In this document: one piece after another, positions 48,146 to 62,225 of the stretch
How positions within the stretch are numbered: the first letter of the stretch is position 1
Layout: each line of letters begins with the position of its first letter
From: Haloplanus sp. XH21
GTDB lineage: Archaea > Halobacteriota > Halobacteria > Halobacteriales > Haloferacaceae
NCBI RefSeq assembly: GCF_023276355.1
Contig: NZ_JALLPL010000001.1
Coordinates: 62,001-126,000, forward strand
Reading direction: 5' to 3'
DNA length: 64,000 nt
Position numbers and translations under genes: made by a program
The notes under the pieces: generated by a model
Seen by the model: only the letters and a program-made list of their open reading frames with translations
Told to the model about the DNA's origin: nothing
The model's database searches: none

Positions 48146-49348
48146 TTAGTCGAAGGGGTCCTCGTCGCCCGTCAGTTCGGCGAGTCGCGTCGCCCCGGCG
48201 CGGGTGCCCTTGGCGATGAGCACGTCTCCGGGATGGACGGTCGTCCGTGGACCGGGCGAGACGACCCAGTCGCCGTCGCCCCGCCGCACCGCGATGACGC
48301 GCATCCCCGTCTCGGTTTTGACCTCCAGTTCGCCGAGCGAGGCGCCGGCGAGATGGCTGCCGGCCCGGACGCCGACGCGGACGATCACCTCGTCCGACTC
48401 CTCGACCGCGGCGGCGACGACGGGATGCGTATCGAGGCCACGGAGGACGCCCTCGCTGATCTCCAAGGCAGCGTCGCTGATGACCTCGGTCGCGCTCGCG
48501 AGATGGACCAGCCCGCGGAGCGTGATGGGGTCTTCCACCCGTCCGGCGGCGCGCAACACCCACGCCTCGAACCGCGATTTCAGGGCGTCGACCTCGGCTT
48601 CGAGTTCGACCACCTCCTCGGCCACCCCTTCGCTGTCGAACAGCACCGACCCGTAGGCCAGGTCGACCGCGAGTTCGCTCATGTTTTTCATCAGGACGAT
48701 GGAGTCGACCGCGCGGTCCAGGTCGTCGATGGAGGACGGCACCGAATCGGGCGGGGTGTAGGTGTCGCCGGTGACGGTTTCATACACCGGGGAGAGCGCG
48801 GTTTCGGTGCCCCGAAGGAGGACGACATCGTCCGCATCGAGCGTGGTGTCGCGGTCGGGGTTGGCGACCCAGTCGCCCGCCCGGCGGAGCGCGATGACGC
48901 GCACGCCCGTTTCGGTCTCCAGGTTGAGATCGCCGAGCGTCCGGCCGGCGTAGTCCGACGCGGAATCGATCTGTCCCCGGACGACGGTTTCGACCGCCTC
49001 CGGGATCGCCGCGCGCATCGCTTCGGGGACGCCGATGTCTTGGAGGACGATCTTCGCGATGTCGCCCGCGGCGTCGCTGATCTTCTCGGCGGCGCCGACG
49101 ACGCCGAGAACGGGGGCCAGCCCCTCGGCGTCCTCCGGGCTTCGAGCCGCCATCAGGAGGCTCATCCGCGCCTGTAGCTGCAACACGTCCATCCGCTCTT
49201 CGAGTTCGAGCACCTCGGCCGCCACCTCGTCGCTCCCGTGGAGCACGGCCGAATACGAGAGATCGATGAGGAGTTCGGCCGTGTCCTTCATCTCGACGAG
49301 GACGTTCTTCACGCTGACCGGTTCGTACTCGACGTCCCCCGGATCCAT
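48146..49348 (-). CDS. PhoU/TrkA-C protein, potassium channel regulator type
   Basis: A 400-aa soluble protein made of two similar halves. Each half has a PhoU-like helical bundle (VKNVLVEMKDTAELLIDLSY; VDSIVLMKNMSELAVDLAYG) followed by a TrkA-C/RCK-C domain (GRTLGDLNLETETGVRVIALRR; GASLGELEVKTETGMRVIAVRR). The arrangement fits cytoplasmic ligand-binding regulators of K+ or other ion transporters; no channel gene is beside it. The duplication is clear from the repeated TETG[VM]RVIA motif. Confidence 0.9.
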   Translation of the reverse strand: MDPGDVEYEPVSVKNVLVEMKDTAELLIDLSYSAVLHGSDEVAAEVLELEERMDVLQLQARMSLLMAARSPEDAEGLAPVLGVVGAAEKISDAAGDIAKIVLQDIGVPEAMRAAIPEAVETVVRGQIDSASDYAGRTLGDLNLETETGVRVIALRRAGDWVANPDRDTTLDADDVVLLRGTETALSPVYETVTGDTYTPPDSVPSSIDDLDRAVDSIVLMKNMSELAVDLAYGSVLFDSEGVAEEVVELEAEVDALKSRFEAWVLRAAGRVEDPITLRGLVHLASATEVISDAALEISEGVLRGLDTHPVVAAAVEESDEVIVRVGVRAGSHLAGASLGELEVKTETGMRVIAVRRGDGDWVVSPGPRTTVHPGDVLIAKGTRAGATRLAELTGDEDPFD

Positions 49349-49510
49349 ACTCCCCCTCGGACCGCCGGAGGGATAAAAGCCACCGGGCGAGGGGAGCGGT
49401 TGGTTTCGGTTGCACACGCAGTCCCACGATCACGTGCGCGGACGTACAGACGGCCACTTCGGAGCGGCGGGAACGCTTACCTTCCCAGGCGGCGTACGTC
49501 CGGGCGTTCG

Positions 49511-50047
49511 ATGGCCATCGACCCGCGAAACTACGACGTGGACGAACTCCGGGCGGTGAGCGGCAGCGAATCGCCGGGTCGCGCAGTCCCATGGCCGGGA
49601 GGCTTCGAGGCCGCAATCGAGCCAGCGGACTGGCCGGGTGAGTTCGAGCCAGCGGTCGACGCGTTCGAGGCGGAATCGGCCCGCCCGGCGGCGACCGTCG
49701 CGTTCGAGGCGGCAGTGCGGCGTGCTCTCGCGAACCTCGATCAGGCGGCCGGCACCGTCGAGCGACCGTATCTGCCCACCCTGCCGGCGTCGCCGGCGGC
49801 CGAGCGGCTCGTGTTCGAGTGGCTGGAGTTTCTGTGCTTGCAGGCCGGCCGCGAGTCCGTGGATGACGCAGTAGCGCTGTACGAACGGGTCGACTGGATC
49901 GGCGAGGACGCCGCCGCCGAACTCGATGCATCTCTCGCGGAACTGGAGGTGTCGCGGGCGAACGAGGACAACGAACTCGACACCGCAGATCACCAGGTGA
50001 GCCTCCGATACATCGCACGACTCGCAGCGCTGATAATCGGGGAGTGA
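49511..50047 (+). CDS. Archaellum D/E-domain protein (FlaD/FlaE-like)
   Basis: A 178-aa protein. Residues about 95-178 (RPYLPTLPASPAAERLVFEW, LEFLCLQAGRESVDDAVALY, RVDWIGEDAAAELDASL, then HQVSLRYIARLAAL) match the D/E domain of archaellar accessory proteins, which link archaella to the chemotaxis machinery. The N-terminal 90 residues are acidic and unassigned. No archaellum or chemotaxis gene is near. It is followed 34 bp later by the actin homologue. Confidence 0.8.
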   Translation: MAIDPRNYDVDELRAVSGSESPGRAVPWPGGFEAAIEPADWPGEFEPAVDAFEAESARPAATVAFEAAVRRALANLDQAAGTVERPYLPTLPASPAAERLVFEWLEFLCLQAGRESVDDAVALYERVDWIGEDAAAELDASLAELEVSRANEDNELDTADHQVSLRYIARLAALIIGE

Positions 50048-50081
50048 GTTATTTACCACGTCCGAGAGAACCGGGTTGCGT

Positions 50082-51170
50082 ATGAGTGACTCGGACGCGG
50101 GGAGCGACGAAGACGAAGCTGAAGCGGTAGCCAACGAGGGCGACGAACCGACGCCCATCGGCGTCAAACTCGGGAGCACCCGAACCGTCATCGCGATTCC
50201 GGAGGACGGCGGCCTACGGACGGTGAAGACGCTGACCTGTCTCGCCACCTACGAGGACGCCATCACGGGCGAGGAGAAAGTCCTCTACGGCGAGGAGGCG
50301 GCCCGGGAGTATCCCGACCGAGTGCAGTACACGCTCCGGTCGGGGCTCCCGGAGGACGAAGACGCCGCCGAGTTGACGGCGACGTTTTTCGAATCGGTCA
50401 TCGAGGCCAACGACGTGCCCACGGACAGCGCCGTGGTGTACGCCATCCCGACCATCGACAACGAACGTGGCCTGTCGAACCTCGAATCGGTCATCGAGGG
50501 GAGTTCGATCGGCGAGACGCTGATCCGAAGCTACCCCGAATCGCTGTGTGGCGCAGTCCCTGCCCTCGGCGCGGACCTCGAAGCCATCGACGACATCTTC
50601 GTCACCGTGAACATGGGATCGACGAACCTCGAAGCGTCGGCCTACCGGCGCGGTGAGCAACTCATCCCGTTCACCACCGGCGCCGTCACCGGCAACGAGG
50701 TGGACCGCCGCATCGCCAACTACGTCGAGGAGGAGACCCAGGGACGCGTGAACATCGACACGACGACCGCTCGAGAGTACAAGGAAGAGCACGCCGACTT
50801 CGTGGATTTCGAGCCGTTCACGGACATCATCCAGCAACCCGGCGGTGGCTCACACGAGTTCACCATCGAACGGAGCGTCATGGACGCCGTCGACGAGTAC
50901 GTCGACGAAGCCGTCGAGGAGGTGGCCAACGCCTTCCTCCCTGACCTCGCCAACGACTACATCAAGGTGTACCAGTTGGCGCTCGACCGACCCATCGTGC
51001 TCACGGGCGGGATGACGTGCATCCCGGGCATCGTCGAGGAGTTCGAGGAGCGGTTGAGCGACGAACTCGAACGCGACGTTGACGTGGTGGCGCCGGACGA
51101 CCCCTCCCTGTCGGCAGCGGTGGGCGCACAGCGCATCGCCGCCCGCCTCGTCGACGCCGACGCGTACTGA
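50082..51170 (+). CDS. Actin-superfamily protein, salactin-like
   Basis: A 362-aa protein with the actin/MreB layout. Phosphate-1 segment [15 protein letters not shown] is near residue 30, then [16 protein letters not shown] (phosphate 2, near 185), and the adenosine motif [18 protein letters not shown] near 310. The composition and blocks fit the haloarchaeal salactin group as I recall it; H. salinarum salactin is a dynamically unstable polymer at cell poles. The usual acidic residues of both phosphate motifs are replaced (Lys and Asn). ATG 50082 has its own TATA-like GTTATTTA 27-30 bp upstream, inside the stop region of the preceding gene. Confidence 0.8.
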
Positions 51171-61828: not shown

Positions 61829-62225
61829 GGCAGAGAGAGCCCGGCCCCCGTGCCTTCGGGCATGAGGAAAGTCCCCCCACCGTCCGGACAGGTGACCGGG
61901 CGCAAGCCCGGAGTCGGAGACGGCTGGCTCTGGAACAGAAACGAGACCACTCGGTCCGACCGATGAGGTGTGCGAACCCGAGCGCAAGCGAGGGGAGTTA
62001 ACCCACCGAGGGCAGGGAGATGCCACGTGGGAGATACCACGTCTCTCCGAGGCGTGCGATGCTACTGCGCGCCTTCGGGACCCGTCGGGTCCCGTAACGA
62101 CCGAGAACGGATGGAACGGCGAATCCTCACCGGTGCAAGTCCGCCTCGTCAAGGTAGTCCGGACGCGGAGGTAGACGCTCAGCCGAATGCCGGGTCGAAC
62201 AGAAGGGGGCTTACTCCTCTCAGCC
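61829..62225 (+). ncRNA. rnpB: RNase P RNA
   Basis: Catalytic RNA that trims the 5' end of pre-tRNAs. The universal P4/CR-I segment GAGGAAAGTCC is at 61862, the CR-V partner ACAGAAGGGGGCTTACT lies near 62199-62215, and the P1 helix can be drawn between GGCAGAGAG (61829) and CTCTCAGCC (to 62225) with one mismatch. Conserved central bits include GGGCGCAAGCCC and CGAACCCGAGCGCAAGCGAGG. Ends are approximate. A TATA-like CTTATT at 61799-61804 is 27 bp before the predicted start. Confidence 0.95.

Follow-up and report, generated by a model that had tools for sequence, protein, structure and literature searches.

The question raised by this locus is why a gene for an archaellum-type protein should lie directly before a gene for a cytoskeletal actin, in the same direction and away from any other archaellum gene. 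The locus is part of a window of 64,000 nt (the whole stretch of DNA that was analyzed; positions 62,001 to 126,000 of the forward strand of contig NZ_JALLPL010000001.1) from Haloplanus sp. XH21. A sequence-only reading had described a D/E-domain protein and a polar-filament-type actin homolog encoded 34 bp apart, and had proposed a positioning device in which the former serves as an adaptor for the actin polymer.

An arlD-type gene next to a salactin gene

The spacing and common direction of the two genes were borne out, and the locus consists of the following features (window coordinates).

49511..50047, + strand: arlD-type D/E-domain gene, 178 aa (PF04659 1.3e-21; no FlaC_arch match; tree position outside the ArlCE clade)
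49511..49555, + strand: residues 1-15, the N-terminal motif M-x-[IL]-[ND]-P-R-x-Y-D-[LV]-x-E-L-R, which typifies ArlD-type proteins and which ArlCE lacks
49760..50026, + strand: C-terminal D/E domain, residues 84-172, a predicted helical bundle (PF04659; pLDDT >90 over most of residues 91-170)
50048..50081, + strand: intergenic gap of 34 nt, holding TTATTTA (50049-50055) 27-33 nt before the salactin ATG
50082..51170, + strand: salactin, 362 aa, actin fold plus acidic N-terminal tail (PF25229 3.6e-187; NF053533 1.3e-180)

The arlD stop codon occupies 50045-50047 and the salactin ATG starts at 50082; the TTATTTA between them may act as the TATA box of a leaderless salactin transcript. The D/E domain of the first protein was confirmed (PF04659, Arch_fla_DE, at 76.8 bits against a cut-off of 21, with no other Pfam match). 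The second protein is indeed an actin homolog of the polar-filament type and can be named more sharply as salactin itself: it reaches 599.8 bits on the NF053533 equivalog (cut-off 400) and also exceeds the PF25229 cut-off, and the Pfam/NCBIfam models for MreB, volactin and MamK match it weakly. By curated cut-off, it belongs to the same family as Salactin of Halobacterium salinarum, and it is 88% identical to the salactin of Haloplanus ruber. The flanks are housekeeping rather than motility genes, with a PhoU/TrkA-C protein on the other strand and Pth2 followed by TruD downstream. The former (48146-49417, - strand), divergent from arlD, carries two PhoU and two TrkA-C stretches.

The predicted fold of salactin is the actin fold, matching MreB and MamK (Foldseek 4.7e-19 to Mbl and 3.1e-16 to MamK, for the model of a Haloarcula homolog to which the window salactin is 75% identical). 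The predicted ArlD model matched no PDB structure at E <1, and a PDB sequence search with both window proteins gave nothing significant. An AlphaFold2 model was also made of a fused ArlD-salactin protein, from loci with both genes in one frame and with stops read as glycine. It reached a pTM of 0.61, had low confidence in the N-terminal motif, and contained no confident ArlD-salactin interface or relative placement; it was discarded as evidence of contact.

Identity of the D/E-domain protein

In most species, the D/E protein stands alone and has about 160-180 residues. It begins with an invariant motif, continues with a variable linker and ends in the D/E domain; motif positions P5, Y8, D9, E12, L13 and R14 do not vary among 24 diverse sequences. 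ArlCE proteins lack the motif and have a FlaC domain; the window protein has no match to PF05377 (FlaC_arch) and thus is not ArlCE. The tree separates it from the ArlCE clade (97/92) and puts it on the side of the ArlD encoded in the Halobacterium arl cluster; the deep forks are poorly supported, and only the topology of the tree is used here. Halobacterium ArlD matches the profile of the salactin-linked D/E proteins over its full length (5e-44), and Halobacterium-like genomes (f2 g26) have a full-length match to this profile directly before arlCE-arlF-arlG-arlH, in the arlD position. Based on these comparisons, the salactin-linked protein is best read as ArlD.

The window protein resembles ArlD (FlaD) of the ArlCDE switch complex (PMC6509185) in being a stand-alone D/E-domain protein. 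However, ArlD orthologs are found in the arl cluster in Halobacterium-like genomes and beside cheYCD in Haloferax, whereas the window gene has an actin gene as its neighbor, and its genome yielded no further archaellum gene. It should be noted that ArlD with the motif also occurs where salactin is missing (family f6 and some g26 and g3 genomes), so the motif must have another use at least there. The f6 genomes likewise weaken the idea that the motif is a strict salactin-binding site.

Conservation of the pairing

Of 391 sampled Halobacteria, 186 have a salactin above the cut-off and 305 have D/E domains. A salactin and a full-length linked-type D/E match were both listed for 123 genomes. In 101 of these, the D/E gene immediately precedes salactin in the same direction, with a median of 133 nt between match ends. 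Chance adjacency, for which the expectation is about 0.02 genomes, was rejected. Another 25 salactin genomes with a weaker D/E match were checked by hand, and 22 show the same arrangement; one of the other three (G110) has the D/E gene convergent and just downstream, and two lack the arrangement. Of 67 named loci, 56 have the D/E gene immediately before salactin and in the same direction.

The two genes stay paired in at least 12 named genera, with other neighbors changing around them, so that in this synteny check across haloarchaeal genomes they do not separate freely. Using heuristic gene calls for 21 genus-level groups, ArlD is the most widespread neighbor of salactin, and no other flanking family is present in more than 6 of the 21 (the next best being ParA and CheW, at 6/21). 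In most Halorubrum, the arlD stop and the salactin start overlap by 4 bp as ATGA. Overall, the arrangement is kept in well over a hundred haloarchaeal species.

The exceptions are mainly Halobacterium, Halosimplex and a few genera of Haloarculaceae. In Halobacterium, arlD is in the arl cluster and salactin is elsewhere, which indicates that adjacency is not needed. One genome (G165) keeps the adjacency with one gene inverted, and in two others (G161 and G275) the pair is 5 kb apart. Unlike in the window, the salactin gene of H. salinarum is away from arlD, and a partnership with ArlD is absent from the paper that described it (PMC10746226). That paper reports poor synteny for salactin (Zheng et al. 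2023), which we attribute to the split pair in the reference genus.

Both proteins were already known. The sequence-only reading knew of no account of their pairing, and we found none in the literature searched. The closest is a 2026 transcriptome (PMC13286277), which gives ArlD/HVO_1202 of Haloferax volcanii as one transcription unit, up along with the arl and che units in a csmR mutant, without naming an actin. The gene order in every Haloferax che-arl locus examined, together with a match of H. volcanii to the Salactin family (in the control set), indicates that HVO_1202 is very probably a salactin homolog.

The pair in a genome without archaella

The absence of archaellum genes near the locus had been pointed out before, correctly but with understatement. 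The host genome assembly (2.94 Mb, 95.8% complete) has one salactin gene and two D/E genes, and a genome-wide search of it found no FlaC_arch, archaellin, CheF or CheW. Archaellum positioning therefore cannot be the sole job of the pair, and, as the motility and taxis families searched for are missing genome-wide, a purely archaellum-related role was rejected for this genome.

Motility was apparently lost within the genus Haloplanus while the pair stayed. One congener (G281) encodes archaellins and CheW and has a che-arl cluster; a congener locus (L113) shows such a cluster in full. In another that keeps arlD-salactin (G290), the archaellin gene (G290:C1:2099980-2100333) carries two in-frame stops, a sign of recent motility loss. 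Further afield, all of genus g69 (G183, G277, G337 and G360) retains the pair and lacks archaellins. Salactin has expanded in this archaellum-less lineage, with as many as five matches per genome.

The two proteins, and the two ends of ArlD, appear to have fared differently after the loss. In two archaellum-less Haloplanus genomes, identity of the D/E domain to archaellated species is 62% and 77%, compared with 82-86% among archaellated species, whereas the N-terminal motif (92% and 99%) and salactin (89.6% and 92.4%) hold. Although limited to two genomes, this drift fits a D/E domain that faces the archaellum and an N-terminus that faces something else.

A second stand-alone D/E protein, with a variant N-terminal motif, is encoded outside arl clusters at three loci (G000:C1:2359393-2359656, at L002; L063:8407-8847; L065:6119-6577). 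At L065, its gene is just downstream of another salactin.

Motility, chemotaxis and partition genes around salactin

In other haloarchaea, the surroundings of the pair are rich in motility and chemotaxis genes. Haloferax, Halogeometricum and Halobellus rarus have the order cheY-cheC-cheD-arlD-salactin, and in Haloferax this arlD-salactin block is beside the arl cluster. Salactin is within 13.1 kb of arlCE in 14 sampled genomes. In Halovenus, it is inside the archaellum operon, in the order arlCE-arlF-arlG-salactin-arlCE-arlH-salactin-arlCE-arlH (L068:2540-11032; also L162 and L163), where the second salactin comes with a tandem duplication of the salactin-arlCE-arlH block. Archaella are present in 176 of 186 genomes with salactin and in 119 of 205 without it (Fisher 1e-18, phylogeny being ignored). 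There are nevertheless many archaellated families that lack salactin, including Natrialbaceae-like ones. Of 17 archaellated Haloferacaceae without salactin, 12 have other D/E genes but no ArlD-type protein either, which suggests that loss of salactin tends to go with loss of ArlD.

In Haloarcula, Halomicrobium, Halorhabdus, Salinibaculum and relatives, the pair is accompanied by divergent genes for a ParA-type ATPase (AAA_31 3.8e-37) and a CheW-domain protein (4.4e-22) with a long acidic N-terminal tail. The divergent ParA-CheW operon next to arlD-salactin is found at L036:2293-4166 and at 16 other Haloarculaceae loci. In Vibrio, ParC and ParP are a pair that positions chemosensory arrays at the pole. 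By analogy, with a ParA ATPase and a CheW-domain protein encoded back to back, the Haloarculaceae genes are a possible archaeal counterpart of ParC/ParP, although the Haloarculaceae set adds an actin and a D/E-domain protein. No ParA or CheW gene is beside the window pair, and CheW is absent genome-wide.

Taken together, the che and arl linkage and the ParA-CheW pair support a role for arlD-salactin in spatial organization. In this respect the proposed positioning device is partly supported, with its adaptor best read as ArlD.

Outside the haloarchaea, salactin has other partners. At six of eight f15, f16 and f35 loci (including L199-L202, L205 and L206), genes for salactin, a coiled-coil protein and a ParA/MinD ATPase follow in that order; the f15 and f35 genomes we take to be Archaeoglobi. 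At L199, the salactin operon comes directly after genes for a T2SSE ATPase, a T2SSF protein and a pilin-like protein (type IV pilus-like). In f19 genomes, presumably Methanocella, salactin follows a gene for a large surface-type protein. That ParA/MinD ATPases recur beside salactin speaks for a role in positioning or partition that predates the association with ArlD.

What the pair may do

Several published observations bear on function. In H. salinarum, salactin forms dynamically unstable filaments that grow from polar foci and shrink back, and cells without it have normal motility and a disturbed DNA distribution at low phosphate (PMC10746226). ArlD-GFP forms polar, mobile foci in H. volcanii, of which small ones move between the poles, and archaella are missing without ArlD (Li et al. 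2019, PMC6509185). MinD2 and MinD4 affect the ArlD foci (PMC11588486), and CheF docks on ArlCDE (PMC9126983).

Our main reading, to which we give a probability of about 0.45, is that arlD-salactin is an ancient haloarchaeal module in which ArlD is a two-ended polar adaptor for salactin filaments. The published observations and the retention of the pair without archaella all fit a reading in which ArlD serves salactin, rather than one in which salactin is essential for archaella. The module would often be co-transcribed and sometimes translationally coupled. The C-terminal D/E domain of ArlD would belong to the ArlCDE switch ring of the archaellum, the docking place of CheF, and the N-terminal motif and flexible linker would face a second polar partner, most likely the salactin system. 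In the mechanism that we favor, ArlD would nucleate or anchor the dynamically unstable salactin filaments at the pole. The machinery there (archaella and taxis arrays, in species that have them) would thereby be tied to filaments that extend into the cell and help to distribute both polar complexes and DNA when the cell divides. In archaellum-less species, such as the source of the window, the pair would retain its function in anchoring and partition. We infer that ArlD and salactin touch, which of them depends on the other, and what each end of ArlD does. Pairs of this kind have precedents in MamK with its adaptor and in ParM-ParR, where an actin filament gene is likewise next to a small candidate adaptor; the difference is that the candidate here is a motor switch protein, and that the window pair has, as far as is known, no DNA site or magnetosome.

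The model of the sequence-only reading is more specific. Salactin would be the effector and ArlD the cargo adaptor, and filaments would deliver pre-assembled, ArlD-containing motor complexes to the pole, or hold them there, and at the new pole after division. The che and arl linkage of the pair, the strong association of salactin with archaella, and the dependence of archaella on ArlD, whose foci move between poles (PMC6509185), all fit this model. Yet motility in H. salinarum is unchanged without salactin (PMC10746226), many archaellated families do without it, and the pair is kept in the host genome and a whole genus (g69) that lack archaellins. We thus consider such a positioner rather unlikely. 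Slightly less probable still is that the two genes share only their expression: arlD would have moved beside salactin in an early haloarchaeon and stayed because rod-shaped, motile cells need both at the same time, with no physical contact between the products. Joint regulation of the ArlD/HVO_1202 unit with the arl and che units (PMC13286277) would be expected in that case, as would the separation of the pair without loss of either gene in Halobacterium and Halosimplex. However, the two-gene unit outlasts the loss of all the other motility genes searched for, its adjacency survives replacement of the flanks and even an inversion, and the 4-bp overlap in Halorubrum also speaks against it.

For the window species alone, the pair might be a decaying relic of a recently lost motility locus, given the broken archaellin gene of congener G290 and the unusually diverged D/E domain of the window genome. 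We regard this as improbable, since both frames are intact, salactin and the N-terminal motif are conserved, and genus g69 has the pair and several salactin copies without any archaellin.

Implications

A broader reading, which we hold only tentatively and below the main one, is that archaea have a dedicated actin-based polar organizer. ArlD, known to date solely as a component of the motor switch, would anchor and nucleate salactin at the pole and link the filaments with archaella and, via the ParA-CheW neighbors, with chemosensory arrays, and the Archaeoglobi-like archaea would have a MinD-coupled version. If this is true, salactin would be a general positioning filament and not a chromosome-only device. 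The pairing also gives HVO_1202 a likely identity and explains the poor synteny reported for salactin.

For the polar placement and inheritance of archaella and taxis arrays, the literature searched implicates only MinD2, MinD4 and cell shape, and what holds salactin at the pole is not stated in the paper that describes its filaments (PMC10746226). The conserved pair is a candidate answer to both questions, and suggests that the cytoskeleton of archaea is connected with their motility apparatus at the pole.
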